A DNA stretch of 64,000 nucleotides from Bacteroidales bacterium (GTDB lineage Bacteria; Bacteroidota; Bacteroidia; Bacteroidales; F082): positions 20,171-84,170 of the forward strand of contig JAFYIE010000051.1 in assembly GCA_017538795.1 (NCBI GenBank), in the 5' to 3' direction. Both the position numbers and the translations under genes were made by a program. This document shows, one piece after another, positions 3,847-52,621 of the stretch. Under the pieces are notes generated by a model, which saw nothing but the letters and a program-made list of their open reading frames with translations, searched no databases and was not told where the DNA came from. Every line of letters begins with the position of its first letter. Position 1 is the stretch's first letter.

Positions 3847-4899
3847 ATGAAAACTAAAAGCTTTATCCTTTCAGTGATTGCACTGTGCAGCATGACGATA
3901 GCACAGGCCCAACGCACCGATGTTATGACCGCCACCTTGCAACATGGCGACGACGTGACAGTATTCACAACCCAGACAGCTTTTGCCAATGCATACGCTG
4001 CAGCCGTTGATGGCGATGTGATTACGCTTTCACCGGGACAATTTAATGCGACGAACCTCACCAAATCGGTAAATATCTATGGTTCAGGATTTGAAGAAAA
4101 TGAGACTGATGGGACAAGTATTACCCAAATCAATGGTAATTTGTCTATTGGAGTAACTGACGAAACCTTGAGCAATGTCCATATTGAGGGTGTATATTTC
4201 TATGATTATTTTAGGAATTACGCATCTTCCCCTCTGACAAATGTAACTATCAAAAAATGCAGTTTTAGACGTGATTTAAGTATTTGCAGTGAAATCACAA
4301 ACGTTACTTTCTGTGATTGTTATACTTGTACCATTTACGGTCTCTATAATATTATGGCCAATAACTTATTGGTGACAAATTGTTATGTTAATGGTTGCGT
4401 GAAAGCATTCCAATCGGGCAGCACGGTACTCATTGATCATTGCATAATTACTGGTTTCATTGCTGCGTATGAGAACGGCAATATACCTAATGATTTAGTT
4501 TATTCAGCTTTTACATGGAAAAACTGTGTTTTCACATGGTGGGGATCTACTAGCTACTGGAGTAATTGGCAATATAATAGAGTTGGCCTAGGTGCTACTG
4601 TCTATAATTGTATTTACAGGGATTCCATGGGCAATATTTCTTTTACGTCATATGACCTCATACAAGTTGAAAGGGGTACCCAAATTTTTAGCGATGCTAA
4701 CAATGATACATATACCCCAACCAGAACCTTTACACTGATACAACCAACAGTATGGCTTGGCACGGATGGGACACAAATTGGCGTCAGCGGAGGCAACTAT
4801 CCTTGGAGCAGAGTGCCGGCAACACCAGTAGTAAAAAGCCTTGATTTAAATGTCAGCGGCACAAATCTGAATGTAACTTTCGATGCGGAAACACGCTAA
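3847..4899 (+). CDS. Secreted right-handed beta-helix protein
   Basis: This 350-residue protein has a clear signal peptide ending at AQAQ. The sequence DVITLSPGQFNATNLTKSVN opens a run of short strand/turn repeats rich in N, V, I and C (NVHIEGVYF, NVTIKKCSF, NVTFCDCYT, NLLVTNCYV). This is the pattern of a parallel beta-helix, as in pectate-lyase-like and adhesin-like proteins. No catalytic residues can be assigned, and there is no T9SS sorting domain at the C-terminus, which ends in a short beta segment (SLDLNVSGTNLNVTFDAETR). The middle of the gene (about 4080-4760) is visibly richer in A/T than its two ends, suggesting the repeat domain has a different origin. The next gene starts 20 bases on, so an operon is likely. 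Confidence 0.7.
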   Translation: MKTKSFILSVIALCSMTIAQAQRTDVMTATLQHGDDVTVFTTQTAFANAYAAAVDGDVITLSPGQFNATNLTKSVNIYGSGFEENETDGTSITQINGNLSIGVTDETLSNVHIEGVYFYDYFRNYASSPLTNVTIKKCSFRRDLSICSEITNVTFCDCYTCTIYGLYNIMANNLLVTNCYVNGCVKAFQSGSTVLIDHCIITGFIAAYENGNIPNDLVYSAFTWKNCVFTWWGSTSYWSNWQYNRVGLGATVYNCIYRDSMGNISFTSYDLIQVERGTQIFSDANNDTYTPTRTFTLIQPTVWLGTDGTQIGVSGGNYPWSRVPATPVVKSLDLNVSGTNLNVTFDAETR

Positions 4900-4918
4900 C
4901 CATTATTTGCAAACGACT

Positions 4919-6913
4919 ATGAACAGACTAAGAAGCATCATGTTCGCTGTCGCCACTGTCGTCTGCACGACGGTAATGGCACAGAACACCATCACCCAAG
5001 AGGTCTATTGGCTTGATGGTGATGTCAGCACGGCACAAGCAGCGATATCAACAGTAGATATTTCCGGCCTTTTGCCAGGATTGCACTCCTACTCCATTCG
5101 TGTAAAAGACTCGAACGGACTTTGGAGTTCGATAGTTACCAAGTATTTTGTCATTCCTTATTATGAGCCAACGGCAACCGCCATCGCTCAGCGTGAATAT
5201 TGGATCGACGGCAACGTGGCAGCTCGCACTGCACTCGGCGATTCGCCGGCAGTCATTGCTATTGGCAGTCTTTCGTCGGGTCTGCACTCGCTTACCGTTC
5301 GCGTGAAAGACGACGCCGGTCGGTGGAGTTCGGCTGTAACCAAATATTTCATCATACCATCGGCAACAGAATCATCGAGCGTGGCTCTTGCACGCTACAT
5401 GTACTGGATTGACGGCGACGTGGCGTACTGTGTGACGGGCAACGTTTCGGGCAGCGCCATTGAGATAGACTTCTCGGCACTTTCCGAAGGCACTCATACC
5501 CTCAGTTGGCGTGTGAGTGATACCAAAGGAGCATGGGGTTCGGTAAAAACTGAAACATTCACCTATTCGAACATCACTACTGCAGGCGACTGGAATGTCG
5601 CTGCCAACTGGAACACCGGCATTGTGCCAGCAGCAGGCACCGATGTCACCATCGCGGCAGATATCACCATCCCAAGCGGATACATTGCCGATGCAAGCAA
5701 CATCACCATTGCCGACGGAGGCAGCCTTACCATTGCCGACGGCGGACAGCTTATCCACAGCAACATAGTGAATGTCACGACAGAGAAAAACCCTGAAAAA
5801 GCAACCAACTGGGGAGAGCCAGATCCTGCCAGTCCTTACATCCCCGACGGTTGGTATTTCATAGCATCGCCAGCCGACGGCGCCAGCTTCGGCACTGTAA
5901 CCACTGGCGACTACGACCTTTATGTTTTAAATAATGCCACAATGCATTGGCTCAACCAGAAGAATCAGGAGCATGCAGCATTGTTTGAGAATGGTTTCCA
6001 GAGAGGCACGGGGTATCTTTACGCCACCAACGAAGAAAACGTCACGCTGCAATTCAGCGGCGAAGCTATCCCATACGAATCCACCTATACCATTCCTCTT
6101 GAGGCGGGTTGGAACTTGGTTGGCAACCCGTTCACACGCAATGTGGTGCCCAACCAGAGCTATCTCACACTTGTCAATGCTGCGTCAACCACAGCTGTTA
6201 CAGCAGGCAGCGGCGAGATCACCCCAGGTATGGGTATCGCAGTATATTCAGAAAATGGCGGAACCCTTGGCTTTACACTTCCTGGCGAAGCCTCATCGGC
6301 GCCAAGCAACAACATTCAGATGACCTTGTCGCAGACAGTCACCACCCGTGGCGAAACGCATACCACCACTATCGACAATGCCATCGTGAGCTTTAATGAA
6401 AATGAACGCATGCCGAAATTCGACCTCTTAGAAGGTCGTGCCAAGCTCTACATACCGAAAAGCAACAACGACTACGCTATCGCGTTCAGTAACCGTCAAG
6501 GCGAGGTGCCAGTATATTTCAAGGCAAAAGAAACAGGAAGATATACGATTTCCGTAGAGACGCACGACTGTGCATCTCTACAAGGGGTGAAATTGATAGA
6601 TAAATTTGAAAACGTTGTTATTGATTTAGGTGTTGAGAGCAGTTACACATTCATTGGCACGCCTGCTGACAGCAGAGACAGATTCATCATCCGGTTCGAG
6701 AACTCTGAGAACTTCGAAAGTTCAGATTTCGCCTACCAAAACGGTACAGACATCATCGTCAACGGCAATGGTGAACTGCAAATCTTCGATGTAATGGGAC
6801 GTCTGGTTTCACAACAATATGTCAATGGCATTGAAACCATCGCGAAACCGACGCAAACAGGCGTTTACATTTTCAAACTAGAAGGAAAAACACAGAAAAT
6901 TGTCATTAAATAA
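4919..6913 (+). CDS. T9SS-secreted protein with three YW(L/I)DG repeats
   Basis: I start this protein (664 residues) at the ATG at 4919. It opens directly on a signal peptide (MNRLRSIMFAVATVVCTTVMAQ) and lies 20 bases after the previous stop. An upstream ATG at 4883 would overlap that gene and push the signal peptide inward. Three consecutive modules of about 55 residues follow, each opening YW(L/I)DG(D/N)V and closing with a GLHS...RVKD...WSS...F pattern. Next comes a stretch with ITIADGG repeats, then a region like the surface proteins of gut Bacteroidales (GWYFIASP, GWNLVGNPF). The C-terminus (LQIFDVMGRLVSQQY ... GVYIFKLEGKTQKIVIK) is a type A T9SS sorting domain, so the protein should be exported and anchored or released at the cell surface. 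A palindromic repeat (6553-6582) is in frame at about residues 545-556. The function is unknown. Confidence 0.8.
   Translation: MNRLRSIMFAVATVVCTTVMAQNTITQEVYWLDGDVSTAQAAISTVDISGLLPGLHSYSIRVKDSNGLWSSIVTKYFVIPYYEPTATAIAQREYWIDGNVAARTALGDSPAVIAIGSLSSGLHSLTVRVKDDAGRWSSAVTKYFIIPSATESSSVALARYMYWIDGDVAYCVTGNVSGSAIEIDFSALSEGTHTLSWRVSDTKGAWGSVKTETFTYSNITTAGDWNVAANWNTGIVPAAGTDVTIAADITIPSGYIADASNITIADGGSLTIADGGQLIHSNIVNVTTEKNPEKATNWGEPDPASPYIPDGWYFIASPADGASFGTVTTGDYDLYVLNNATMHWLNQKNQEHAALFENGFQRGTGYLYATNEENVTLQFSGEAIPYESTYTIPLEAGWNLVGNPFTRNVVPNQSYLTLVNAASTTAVTAGSGEITPGMGIAVYSENGGTLGFTLPGEASSAPSNNIQMTLSQTVTTRGETHTTTIDNAIVSFNENERMPKFDLLEGRAKLYIPKSNNDYAIAFSNRQGEVPVYFKAKETGRYTISVETHDCASLQGVKLIDKFENVVIDLGVESSYTFIGTPADSRDRFIIRFENSENFESSDFAYQNGTDIIVNGNGELQIFDVMGRLVSQQYVNGIETIAKPTQTGVYIFKLEGKTQKIVIK
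6553..6582 (+). repeat. Family A palindromic element, copy A1, inside a gene
   Basis: Arms at 6554-6564 and 6571-6581 (GTAGAGACGCA and TGCATCTCTAC, one G-T pair) surround a 6-base loop. In the host frame it reads VETHDCASLQ, matching the peptide read from the three other copies. It is the least perfect copy. Confidence 0.65.
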
Positions 6914-7232: not shown

Positions 7233-7350
7233 CAAGAAGAAATACTAATCCGTTTAGCAGGGAACAGGTCTGCTTGTAAAACCGATTCAACGCCCGCCCT
7301 TATGACGGTAGCGGATTAGAAACAAAAAGGGGATTCAAATCCCCTTTTTT
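7233..7350 (+). ncRNA. Candidate structured small RNA, family unknown
   Basis: A unit of about 118 bases lies between a -7 box and an intrinsic terminator. An 8-bp closing stem (7245-7252 with 7312-7319, CTAATCCG/CGGATTAG) encloses two hairpins: 7256-7260 with 7270-7274 (AGCAG/CTGCT, loop GGAACAGGT) and 7281-7284 with 7306-7309 (ACCG/CGGT). The result looks like a three-way junction. The loop GGAAC and the CCCGCC segment faintly recall cobalamin riboswitches, but the conserved core is not there. It could be a trans-acting small RNA or a terminating leader. The start is inferred from the promoter box and is approximate. Confidence 0.5.
7324..7350 (+). terminator. Intrinsic terminator of the structured RNA
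   Basis: An 11-bp stem (7324-7334 with 7339-7349, containing GGGGAT/ATCCCC) with a 4-base loop ends in six T residues. The A-tract on the other side makes it able to act on both strands. Confidence 0.85.
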
Positions 7351-14991: not shown

Positions 14992-16260
14992 TCATTTAAT
15001 ACCGTTTTCTTTCATAAATCTTCTAATCTCCGCAGCATGACATCCCTTGATGATGACATGATGGTTGCCGATGGTATGATTCAGAAGATAAGGTTTGAGA
15101 TTGACATCGAAAGTAATTTGAGTACGGCAAAAATGATTGCTGTACTCATTTTTTATTGCTTTAGCCTCTGTCACAAACAGTTTATCTAAACGTCTTCCGC
15201 CCCACTTCATGATGGTGTAGTCGGTCAGCGGAAGGTCGCCCTGTACTGCCACGCCGATACCCGACTCGAAATGCGAGCGCACAGTAGTCTCGTCGCACAT
15301 CGCAAGCGGGATGGTGCAATGTCCGAGCATCGTCGTCTTGTCAGTGAGAATCGAAGGATTTGCCATGAAAGCCTCTTCTCCGCACAACTTCTTAGCCAGC
15401 AACATTGTCATCAGAGTCTGCATATCGCCTTCGCAGCCTGCGACCACGCCTTCGTCGTTGAGCAACGCCAACGCCAGGCAACTTGTTGTGTTGCAAGCTT
15501 TTACAATATCGAAACAACGTATCGTCATAGCATCCAGACACTCTTCATGACAAATTTTCTTGATAGCGAGATACGTCTTCGCCGCCGCAATAATATCGTC
15601 ATTTGAAGGCTCTTTCACCGACTTAGAGCGTTTCACAAGATCTTGCGCTATTTTCTTGGCTTCAGCTTCATCAACAAGGTTCATTTCAGATATCAGTCGT
15701 TGCAAATCGATGTTTATCGTCTGAATGCCATAATATTCGCGGAGATAATCGTAATCAACGCCACTTGCGATGAGCCAATCCGACGGCTGGCCGAACAGAC
15801 CTATGCGAGTGCCACGGAATTTTTTCAAGATAGTGTTGTCGGCATTTTGAACCGATGTAACGCTAAACGAATCGGCGACGTTTTTCACTATCTCGTCGTT
15901 GTTCCCGTGGATTATTCTGCCATCGTTACCGTTTTCCCATAAAAAAGACAGGATTTCAAGGGCTGCAGCCAACGAATTGTTTCGTCCGTCGGCGATCAAC
16001 GTGGTGGTTTTCTGTAGAGACGTTTCCTGAAACGTCTCCATTTCAAACAATTTTTTAAACAGATTTTCGGTGCCGCCTGTCGCGATCATCACAAAATCGG
16101 CATTCTGTAGAGACGCGTACCGCGTCTCTACAGAATTTTCGTCACCTAATATTGTTATTTCTGCGTCACATTTTTGTTTCAGCAAACCCAATAATTCGGC
16201 GTATTCCGCCTTCACAAAATCGTCGGATTGAAATGACGACCTTAAAACTAAAACCTTCAT
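14992..16260 (-). CDS. Fucose-isomerase-like protein with two in-frame repeats
   Basis: This 422-residue protein follows the layout of the L-fucose/L-arabinose isomerase family: an N-terminal Rossmann-like half (MKVLVLRSSFQSDDF, IATGGTENLFKKL, LIADGRNNSLAAALEI), then a C-terminal isomerase-fold half (CNTTSCLALALLNDEGVVAGCEGD, read in two parts, then ILTDKTTMLGHCTIP). It may interconvert an aldose and ketose, but the substrate is not evident, and such short homologues in Bacteroidota are often of unknown function. Two copies of a palindromic repeat lie in frame, at residues 43-52 and 74-83, the second exactly where a loop before the GRNNSLAA motif is expected. The gene starts 2 bases after the thioredoxin-like gene and is likely cotranscribed with it. 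Confidence 0.75.
   Translation of the reverse strand: MKVLVLRSSFQSDDFVKAEYAELLGLLKQKCDAEITILGDENSVETRYASLQNADFVMIATGGTENLFKKLFEMETFQETSLQKTTTLIADGRNNSLAAALEILSFLWENGNDGRIIHGNNDEIVKNVADSFSVTSVQNADNTILKKFRGTRIGLFGQPSDWLIASGVDYDYLREYYGIQTINIDLQRLISEMNLVDEAEAKKIAQDLVKRSKSVKEPSNDDIIAAAKTYLAIKKICHEECLDAMTIRCFDIVKACNTTSCLALALLNDEGVVAGCEGDMQTLMTMLLAKKLCGEEAFMANPSILTDKTTMLGHCTIPLAMCDETTVRSHFESGIGVAVQGDLPLTDYTIMKWGGRRLDKLFVTEAKAIKNEYSNHFCRTQITFDVNLKPYLLNHTIGNHHVIIKGCHAAEIRRFMKENGIK
16013..16040 (-). repeat. Family A palindromic element, copy A2, in the fucose-isomerase-like gene
   Basis: The core stem is 16017-16025 with 16030-16038 (GAGACGTTT/AAACGTCTC) with a 4-base loop. The left edge keeps TGTA, while the right edge has changed to CCAT, which supplies a Met codon. 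In the gene it reads METFQETSLQ. Confidence 0.8.
16102..16136 (-). repeat. Family A palindromic element, copy A3, perfect 16-bp stem
   Basis: The stem 16102-16117 with 16121-16136 is perfect over 16 bp with a 3-base loop (TAC). It is read through in frame as SVETRYASLQ. It lies only 61 bases from copy A2 in the same gene. Confidence 0.9.
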
Positions 16261-50791: not shown

Positions 50792-52621
50792 TTAATTTTC
50801 AAAAACAATCTTCATCTGGCAATTTCTGCAGTCAAAGTAAAGGCGGAAACGTCCGTGTGTGTTGCTAATATATAAAGGTGTCGCAGGTTTGCCTGTTTCC
50901 TTGGCGCACATACCGTTGGCATAACGGATGCAATGTTTCGTCGTCATCACCACGATTTCGCCTTCCGGCATGGTTTTTTCGAGACCGTCGTCAATGTGAG
51001 TAACAGCGTGATTCTCATAGAATTTACGGGACAAGGAATTGGTGACGTTGCCCAAATATGACAAATCGTTAACAGGGAAACCGGTTTGTAGAGACGTGCC
51101 ATGGCGCGTCTCTACAGGACGTGCCGCACGATGATTTTCAACCAACGTTTTTTCCAATTCCACCACCAGCTGCCGCTTCATCTCACCCAAAACAGACGCT
51201 GGAATGAAATATATCGTATCTAATTGAATATCAATATTTTCGACAATAAATTTTGTATCACCCCATTGTGACAATTTGGTCTTAATCGTCTCGAGAGCCT
51301 TTTCAGGATTTTTCGCGATATCTTTTGGGCATTGCAGGCAAACGCTGACGTTTTCTGATGACAACTTGAAGCCATCGGATGTCTCGGAGAACTCGAGATT
51401 GATTGCAATTTTGCGGTTGCCGTTAGAATTTTCAACGAATTTTTGCCAAACGATGTCGAAGTTACGATATAAAAGGATTTCTCGACTACGCTTCGCTCCG
51501 CTCGAAATGACATTTGATGTCAAAATGACATTCCCTTCTACCCCATTTACATTAAACCCATACAATTCATTGTTTTCATCTAAGAAACAGAGTCCGTCGC
51601 CGTTGTGCAACGTTATTCCTTCTTTTAACTTGACAGTCAAGCGTTTACCATCGATTTTTTTGATTTCGCCGATGTGCTCTCCCATCGATTTCGGGGTGAA
51701 CGGAGCGTCGATATTTTTCTGGCGACCATGAATAAAATAATCAGTGAAACCACGCGAAAACGACTTTTCGAGATTCGGCACGAACGATGGAGACGAAACA
51801 CCTCGCGAAGAGCGTTCCAAATCCGAACGCCTCTCAATTATTTCATCAAGAGCTTTTCTGTAATAAGCCGTTGTGTTTTTCACATAATCAGCGTCTTTCA
51901 GTCGACCCTCGATTTTAAACGAAGTGATGCCGGCATCTATGAGCTCCTCGAGATTTTTCGAATTGTTCATGTCGCGCAAAGACAGCAGATGTCGGTTGGC
52001 AATCAACAACTTACCGTTTTCGTCTTCGAGATTCCAAGCAAGGCGGCAAGGCTGTGCGCACGCTCCGCGGTTCGCGGAGCGGCGCCCTATCACATGGCTC
52101 AGATAGCACTGGCCGCTATAACTCACACACAAAGCACCATGAACAAAAAACTCCAACGGCACCGTCGTCTTGGAACGAATTTCTTTTATATCATTGACAC
52201 TCAACTCTCTTGCAAGCACAACCTGCTTAAAACCCACATCTTCCAAAAACTTCACCTTCTCTGCCGTCGTATTGTTGCACTGAGTCGACGCATGAAGCGC
52301 AATCGGAGGCATATCCATCATCAAAAGCGCCATATCCTGCACAATGAGAGCGTCGACTCCGGCATTGTAGCAGTCCCATGCGATTTTGCGAGCCTGCTCC
52401 AACTCGTTATCGAACAACAAAGTATTAAGCGTAACGTACACTTTGGCATCGAAAATAGCAGCGTGATTGCACAGTTTTTCGATATCCTCAATGCTGTTGC
52501 CTACTTTCTCACGCGCGCCAAAACTCGGTCCGCCAATGTACACAGCATCAGCGCCATGGTTGATGGCAGCCAACCCGACTTCAAGGTTTTTCGCTGGAGA
52601 AAGCAGTTCGATTTTTTTCAC
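50792..52621 (-). CDS. U32 family protein, RlhA-like, with two palindromic insertions
   Basis: This 609-residue protein starts MKKIELLSPAKNLEVGLAAI and has an (alpha/beta)-barrel-like N-terminal half (AVYIGGPSFGAREK, LHASTQCNN, LEFFVHGALCVSYSGQCYLS, 20 residues). Four cysteines follow the pattern C-x6-C, then RGACAQPCR, typical of U32 proteins. These are now linked to rRNA or tRNA hydroxylation (RlhA, TrhP) rather than proteolysis. The C-terminal region is a separate domain with a motif KxGKPATPLY. Copy B1 of a palindromic repeat is in frame at about residues 371-382, just before the family's LYRNFD motif, and copy A4 is at about 503-512. The gene lies 23 bases after the radical-SAM fusion gene. 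Confidence 0.85.
   Translation of the reverse strand: MKKIELLSPAKNLEVGLAAINHGADAVYIGGPSFGAREKVGNSIEDIEKLCNHAAIFDAKVYVTLNTLLFDNELEQARKIAWDCYNAGVDALIVQDMALLMMDMPPIALHASTQCNNTTAEKVKFLEDVGFKQVVLARELSVNDIKEIRSKTTVPLEFFVHGALCVSYSGQCYLSHVIGRRSANRGACAQPCRLAWNLEDENGKLLIANRHLLSLRDMNNSKNLEELIDAGITSFKIEGRLKDADYVKNTTAYYRKALDEIIERRSDLERSSRGVSSPSFVPNLEKSFSRGFTDYFIHGRQKNIDAPFTPKSMGEHIGEIKKIDGKRLTVKLKEGITLHNGDGLCFLDENNELYGFNVNGVEGNVILTSNVISSGAKRSREILLYRNFDIVWQKFVENSNGNRKIAINLEFSETSDGFKLSSENVSVCLQCPKDIAKNPEKALETIKTKLSQWGDTKFIVENIDIQLDTIYFIPASVLGEMKRQLVVELEKTLVENHRAARPVETRHGTSLQTGFPVNDLSYLGNVTNSLSRKFYENHAVTHIDDGLEKTMPEGEIVVMTTKHCIRYANGMCAKETGKPATPLYISNTHGRFRLYFDCRNCQMKIVFEN
51087..51116 (-). repeat. Family A palindromic element, copy A4, in the U32 gene
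   Basis: TGTAGAGACG (51087-51096) pairs with CGTCTCTACA (51107-51116); the centre GCCATGGC is itself a palindrome. In the host frame it reads VETRHGTSLQ. Confidence 0.85.
51476..51511 (-). repeat. Family B element, copy B1, in the U32 gene
   Basis: A half-type element runs from GTCATTTCGA on the minus strand to the end TCGAGAAATC, with an inner CGGAGCGAAGCG part. It is read in frame as VISSGAKRSREI. A short direct repeat (AATGACATT, twice in the plus-strand sequence from 51506 on) lies next to it. Confidence 0.75.

Follow-up and report, generated by a model that had tools for sequence, protein, structure and literature searches.

REP-like palindromes in Bacteroidales protein genes share coding sites between species and differ in their cores

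Four short palindromes lie inside protein genes of a 64,000-nucleotide stretch of Bacteroidales DNA (the window), and they belong to a dispersed family of the form GTAGAGACG-core-CGTCTCTAC, in which near-constant 9-nt arms enclose cores of about 10 nt. The family is found in all 36 genomes of the genus that were searched. Its coding copies are read in two of the three frames, and some occupy sites shared between species, at which the core is replaced and the stem covaries. We consider it probable that these are REP-like elements that are tolerated in protein loops if the frame is kept, and that their cores are exchanged between copies.

All four palindromes of the window are enclosed by long open frames that scored as coding in our own gene-calling scripts (Table 1). 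This agrees with a sequence-only reading of the window, whose coordinates were right to within one base or took in flanking bases, and which had described two copies 61 bases apart in an isomerase-like gene (from 16040 to the stem at 16102-16136), one with a perfect 16-bp stem. The coding score is neutral over the 43 codons upstream of 16107, where the gene is confirmed by its orthologues. The arms are exact in two palindromes (16107-16131 and 51088-51115), with none expected from 100 shuffles, and the others carry one arm mismatch (6554-6581) and two (16014-16041). Chance palindromes are thereby ruled out, as also by a second test in which 0.05 were expected and 3 were seen. A known RNA family was likewise rejected, since an Rfam search of the window at gathering thresholds matched a tRNA only. 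Perfect stems of at least 11 bp with a loop of at most 8 nt occur in the window only at 16102-16136 and at 7324-7349; the latter, AAAAAGGGGATTCAAATCCCCTTTTT, is an ordinary terminator-like hairpin.

Table 1. Palindromes of the window and the genes that contain them
Feature	Positions	Strand	Sequence	Reading or description
Palindrome in gene 4883-6913	6554..6581	+	GTAGAGACG-CACGACTGTG-CATCTCTAC	VETHDCASLQ; one arm mismatch
Palindrome with asymmetric end, isomerase site S2	16014..16041	-	GTAGAGACG-TTTCCTGAAA-CGTCTCCAT	METFQETSLQ
16-bp perfect stem with 3-nt loop around the 25-nt element 16107-16131, isomerase site S1	16102..16136	-		VETRYASLQ
Palindrome	51088..51115	-	GTAGAGACG-TGCCATGGCG-CGTCTCTAC	VETRHGTSLQ
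Host gene of the 6554 copy	4883..6913	+		Secreted-type protein; Por_Secre_tail and Ig-like matches weak, none reaching the Pfam cut-off
Host gene of the S1 and S2 copies	14992..16260	-		Sugar isomerase-like, 422 aa; AraA_central at 23.9 bits, cut-off 24
Host gene of the 51088 copy	50792..52621	-		Peptidase U32 family with DUF3656

The isomerase-like gene is matched in 25 of the 36 genus genomes, its own included, and the U32 gene in 35 of 36, for some of them by a shorter paralogue only. Neither protein has a sequence match among solved structures up to E = 1. At the 6554 site, G005 and G026 carry similar, partly decayed palindromes in the same place. This copy does not resemble a clean insertion, as homologous domains have a loop of nearly equal length there; a loop that has been rewritten seems the better description. 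Elsewhere in the source genome, two apparently paralogous genes, one of them (L021) with a Por_Secre_tail domain, have elements at the same place (L021 1501-1528 and L004 1498-1525) with the cores CGCCATGGCA and TTTCCTGAAA, respectively.

The source genome, a 2.48-Mb draft that is 93.5% complete, contains 40 copies against 2 control matches when a 10-nt core and up to three mismatches are allowed. Its placement in the Bacteroidales agrees with the best matches of loci of its genus to named contigs and with its T9SS-type sorting domains. Exact copies are present in all 35 other genus genomes searched, at 1-69 per genome, and in 8 of 24 genomes from other families of the same order. A scan of named genomes found at least 117 stretches with the element, other phyla included; among the 80 matches listed are members of the Bacteroidetes, Cyanobacteria, Chloroflexi, Planctomycetes, Spirochaetes, Cloacimonadota and Patescibacteria, as well as Desulfuromonas and Geobacter. 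The typical copy is 28 nt long, which falls within the definition of REPs as many-copy elements of 20-40 bp. GTAG pairs with CTAC in most copies, and one-sided forms such as 16014-16041 are a minority. The stock of cores is small and widely shared: among 144 copies with exact arms, taken from the genus and a few genomes of the same order, there are 61 core types, and the 12 commonest make up 88 copies. The arms contain an Esp3I/BsmBI site, for which reason an adaptor or assembly artefact was considered. It was rejected because the element occurs in named strains (Calothrix PCC 7716, Nostoc, Parabacteroides and Hymenobacter, by record title) and in one complete chromosome, that of Calothrix PCC 7716, and because the core varies. 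In a Candidatus Uhrbacteria contig (L146; Patescibacteria), two copies at 410-438 and 824-852 have the core TTGCAATGCAA, which among the matches listed from the named-genome scan is also seen in Nostoc and Komarekiella contigs.

Most copies lie outside genes. A census of eight genus genomes, all drafts, counted 155 copies, and our own simple hexamer model, used in place of a published gene finder, called 46 of them coding, 12 at gene edges and 97 intergenic. It takes in 50 of the 69 exact copies of G002, 9 of the 49 of G012, 9 from G020, a genome with 16 exact copies, and every listed copy of G003, G014, G015 and G017. Arms were intact or nearly so, copies sharing 60 nt of context on both sides were counted once, and L002, a chance match, was left out together with the source-genome copies with more decayed arms. 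Since gene cover of these same loci is 0.81-0.93, coding copies are rarer than gene density predicts. Among the contigs of named genomes, 23 of 107 copies fall in ORFs of at least 120 aa, compared with 897 of 1160 random positions. The claim that all copies sit inside genes thus fails beyond the window, with 109 of the 155 not called coding and the in-gene share below, rather than above, that of gene density. For 99 non-coding copies with both neighbours called, 37 lie between convergent genes, 61 between co-directional genes and 1 between divergent genes, and they are in this respect placed like REPs.

The 46 coding copies use two frames, with 31 read as VET..SLQ and 15 as CRD..VST. None uses the third, which is expected by construction because that phase contains TAG. 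The 31:15 split is uneven (p = 0.026); named contigs give 17:6, the pooled counts are 48:21 (p = 0.0016), and the more decayed source-genome copies show about 22:8 by eye over 52 places looked at. A T and an A usually flank the element and bring the unit to 30 bp, equal to ten codons; the base adjoining the arm is A in 57-64% of flanks among coding copies and 28-nt intergenic ones. The reading of every copy as VET or MET..SLQ, from which selection on the peptide had been proposed, therefore describes all four window copies and about two-thirds of the coding copies, and such selection is unnecessary for most of the pattern, given one phase with TAG and a usual unit of ten codons. What is left is a bias of about 2:1 towards VET..SLQ, which could reflect modest peptide tolerance or an insertion bias. 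Past the first two flanking bases, coding copies lack any strong target motif, and a strict target motif was rejected accordingly.

The broader proposal of a dispersed palindromic repeat carried in frame within genes, in the manner of the Rickettsia palindromic elements, is supported. Host frames are open, and the segment is lacking from 27 of 30 AnmK loci and, at S1, from the isomerases of G023 and G033. Hosts include ordinary enzymes such as EPSP synthase, AnmK, TsaD, CutC, NqrA and GH77.

Length is associated with placement in the census: among copies of 28 or 25 nt, 46 of 129 were called coding, and among those of 26, 27, 29 or 30 nt, 0 of 26 (Fisher, 7e-5). The rule is confounded because the 29-nt copies largely form a subfamily of their own. 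It is also weak in the named contigs, with 20 of 81 (28 or 25 nt) and 3 of 26 (other lengths) in ORFs (p = 0.18), and has an exception outside the census, a 29-nt copy with two arm mismatches that was called coding (L357, in G015). The 29/30-nt subfamily, with cores like TCATATTATGG, is non-coding in the census (L190, L006, L013 and L235-L259); an earlier census that included same-order genomes outside the genus was used for this statement only. A run of at least five T lies alongside 16 of 19 intergenic 29/30-nt copies, 22 of 73 28-nt copies and 3 of 46 coding copies, and the 29/30-nt intergenic copies look like terminators.

The isomerase-like gene, aligned as the window gene with orthologues from 24 genus genomes (25 species), contains three sites of the element. 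At S1 (codon 43), 13 of the 25 species have a palindrome, with 11 distinct cores; G023 and G033 are among those without it, and G004 and G011 hold decayed forms. At S2, some other species have other cores or decayed remnants. At S3 (about codon 133), the elements of ten species in a single clade have identical junctions on both sides, with eight cores among them. The left junction of S1 is likewise common to nine species.

Placed on the host tree, the S1 cores of G016 and G021 are identical, those of G019 and G024 differ by one base, and those of G002 and G003 differ throughout. Between the host genes of this last pair, 9.3% of nucleotides and 18% of fourfold sites differ, whereas their S1 elements differ at 10 of 10 core positions and 0 of 18 arm positions. 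Averaged over 36 pairs at S1, the differences are 36% at fourfold sites, 69% in the core and 2.5% in the arms; over 45 pairs at S3 they are 36%, 61% and 14.6%. As the core differs far beyond the host while the arms stay near-constant, core divergence at S1 and S3 is not produced by point mutation alone. Fixed outer ends with an exchanged middle at one spot suggest, at the level of sequence comparison, that the repeats overwrite one another.

The paired structure is kept through these changes. At S3, 92.9% of cells are paired and double changes occur at 11 of 13 pairs; at S1 the values are 97.0% and 6 of 13. The covariation score exceeds all 500 shuffles at both sites, with relatedness left in place by the shuffles. 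Of the five measures, two are reached by some shuffles at S1: the count of double-change pairs by 4 of 500 and that of pair types by 6. At S3, the count of pair types is reached by 2. Both alignments have 13 rows and required an ungapped 28-nt element; those left out as shifted, shortened or duplicate include the window's own copy and G015 at S1, and G002, G011, G020 and G010 at S3.

Covarying stems would also be seen if the hairpins were selected as functional RNA structures in the host mRNAs, an explanation that could further draw on the terminator-like character, with T-run, of 16 of 19 intergenic 29/30-nt copies. We consider it very improbable, as the coding copies lie in unrelated genes, in either of two frames and in different loops, have a T-run in only 3 of 46 cases, and at some sites are absent from most relatives examined (27 of 30 for AnmK). 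Paired changes could also arise by local drift with quasipalindrome correction, in which a mutated half serves as the template for the opposite half and cores diverge while remaining paired. The perfecting of quasipalindromes by template switching is treated as established in the accessible part of one paper (PMC6649704), and single sites do show paired arm changes of this kind: GACAC..GTGTC in G021 at S1, GATAC..GTATC in G024 at S3 and GAGAGT..ACTCTC in G018 at S3. Hairpin-templated correction accounts for some of these paired arm changes, but not for replacement of whole cores. A host divergence of 9.3% is too low to account for changes at 10 of 10 core positions, and the cores come from a small set common to unlinked loci (12 types in 88 of 144 copies), so as a general explanation such correction is improbable.

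Turnover is also seen at other genes. In the loop of the U32 gene, cores differ among the window's own copy, G005, G002, G030 and the group G007/G012/G032, and elsewhere the same loop is filled by unrelated repeats: a ACACACCGCGTGTGT type, a TTTCGA..GAAATC type, and tandem GGTGAAAGG- or GGAAAACGG-like units. The frames are open through the TTTCGA..GAAATC-type inverted repeats and the tandem units (L295-L297, L317, L320-L323). The U32 gene of G002 (L391, 3550-4118) has four palindromes, each with its own core; three of them share a reading frame and the fourth uses the other. Near the U32 gene, within a block common to the window and five relatives, lies a site that holds four different family palindromes in the relatives and an unrelated repeat in the window.

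Thirty fetched loci each were aligned for AnmK and EPSP synthase, from 36 and 33 genomes with matches, respectively. At site 1 of EPSP synthase the core differs between the source genome and G034; in G005 (L424) the 3' arm GCGTCTCTACAG alone seems to be left there, perhaps from a half-deleted copy. At site 2, the source genome, G026 and G011 have different palindromes, and G015, G017, G034 and G005 have none. The three AnmK loci with an element all have a CCATGG-centred core, and their distribution is out of step with the isomerase tree, which may reflect recombination between species or parallel events. Several orthologous matches contain one stop, perhaps the terminal one (AnmK L457, L458 and L466; EPSP synthase L419, L420, L423, L424 and L426).

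These loci also bear on how the element enters a gene. In AnmK, the 30-bp element sits where G005, G011 and G017 have 15 native bases. Compared by eye with solved homologues, net gains are about +6 and +2 residues in EPSP synthase, +6 in CutC, +4 in AnmK, +7 in NqrA (poorly aligned) and +9 in GH77, and near zero in LD-carboxypeptidase. Entry thus often swaps out part of a loop rather than being a clean insertion.

The main rival to core exchange is that a few tolerant loops are hit repeatedly and independently by different palindrome families, which requires no exchange between copies. Recurrent insertion must account for part of the data because the U32 loop carries unrelated repeats across species; junctions there also vary by a codon or two, and EPSP-synthase site 2 is filled in some species and vacant in others. 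As an account of the isomerase sites it fares less well, since the junctions are identical in ten species at S3 and the left one in nine at S1 with no strong target motif to direct insertion, and sister species would have had to drop an element and acquire a different one at exactly that position. Overall, we regard independent insertion as rather unlikely.

If cores are exchanged, donors might be recognized by their abundance. The core of G003 at both S2 and S3 is the commonest in that genome (7 of 23 copies, against 2 of 50 in G002). Conversely, the S2 core of G002 is the commonest in G002 (14 of 50; 3 of 23 in G003) and its S3 core the second commonest (8 of 50; 0 of 23 in G003). Sites whose own arms are intact are themselves part of these counts, and both genomes are about 71-72% complete. 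The S1 cores are rare at home, that of G003 being found once in 23 (itself) and that of G002 in 2 of 50, and thus no donor can be pinned for the clearest swap.

REP-type (Y1) transposases, or RAYTs, are natural candidates for moving such elements. In E. coli, TnpA-REP requires GTAG and cuts at CT according to the accessible part of PMC8266576, and the present palindrome offers both on either strand. A Y1 transposase (PF01797), which the sequence-only reading had suggested looking for, was not found in the 93.5% complete source genome but is present in 27 of the 36 genus genomes; the nine without it still have 2-25 exact copies. No GTA[GA]AGACG arms lie within about 1.5 kb on each side of 12 RAYT loci of relatives, and copy number tracks RAYT number weakly (rho 0.39, p 0.02; per Mb, rho 0.29, p 0.09). 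A RAYT as resident mobilizer is therefore unsupported.

The probable course of core exchange is as follows. Short REP-like palindromes are scattered over Bacteroidales genomes, mostly outside genes and away from divergent gaps. Intragenic copies would survive if they preserve the frame, for which the 30-bp unit leaves two of three phases open, and the survivors would be those in loops of ordinary enzymes. An occupied site can be inherited, with its core, or sometimes the whole palindrome, replaced from the family pool, so that arms remain constant and cores turn over faster than neutral sites. The donor would presumably be another copy in the same genome, and replacement might proceed via the hairpin, either by template switching at replication forks or through a REP-type HuH nuclease acting on single-stranded hairpins.

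A more far-reaching version, which we put forward tentatively, is a natural loop-editing system in which a pool of hairpin cassettes with common arms overwrite each other at fixed intragenic places. About four loop residues would then be rewritten in a single step with frame and length kept, by a cassette exchange that needs only arms of about 9 nt and a hairpin and is distinct from both homologous recombination and cut-and-paste transposition. The findings also point to a neglected way in which loops of bacterial enzymes may change abruptly. Orthologous coding sites in up to 25 species serve as a clock, in which the host gene gives the time and arms and core are scored against it, and the question of exchange can therefore be tested by counting.

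The likeness of REP-like palindromes within one genome has been a question at least since a 1988 review by Higgins et al., the title of which proposes gene conversion, and Elhai and colleagues are said to have worked on small dispersed repeats of cyanobacteria. The sequences of the Rickettsia palindromic elements presumably differ from those of the present family. A search of the open literature, by titles and beginnings of abstracts, found no prior report of a family from the Bacteroidales whose GTAG/CTAC ends are fully paired and whose cores are replaced at shared coding sites; among the matches listed for the arm sequence as a string, all look unrelated by title.

Several elements of the picture are already known from the accessible part of Di Nocera et al. 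2013 (PMC3733652), namely intragenic REPs, in-frame palindromes and the occurrence of unlike REPs at roughly one position of the recB genes of two Xanthomonas species. GTAG REPs are described there as short high-copy palindromes between convergent or co-directional ORFs, some of them in frame within genes, and are reported from Proteobacteria, Cyanobacteria, Chloroflexi and the PVC group, not from Bacteroidetes. CGTC-tagged REPs are reported from Bacteroidetes, contrary to the suggestion that the phylum has no described family, and intragenic GTAG and CGTC REPs from several species (PMC3733652). The present elements resemble GTAG REPs in the GTAG mark, in their convergent or co-directional placing and in their in-frame intragenic copies. 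They differ in that GTAG is mostly paired with CTAC here, whereas GTAG REPs have an unpaired GTAG tail on one side, and in the replacement of cores across a genus, a description of which was not found in the accessible part of that paper (PMC3733652).

The Rickettsia palindromic elements RPE-1, RPE-4 and RPE-6 are likewise in-frame palindromes in ordinary genes, RPE-4 and RPE-6 being classed as CGTC REPs; as far as they are described there, they differ from the present family with its two frames, ten-codon unit, near-constant arms and exchanged cores (PMC3733652). REPIN/RAYT systems share the GTAG-marked hairpins handled as single strands, for which spread by an HuH enzyme has been proposed in the accessible parts of PMC3116915 and PMC8266576. 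Unlike in those systems, no RAYT was found in the source genome and the 12 RAYT loci of relatives have no such palindrome nearby. A REPIN is a doublet of inverted REPs; many copies here appear single, and some are grouped in one gene, as the four in the U32 gene of G002. Coding palindromes in the mitochondria of Nematomorpha also consist of inverted repeats within protein genes whose arms evolve together, but those are long and, in the accessible part of their description (PMC6649704), apparently form no dispersed family with shared arms of the kind seen here.
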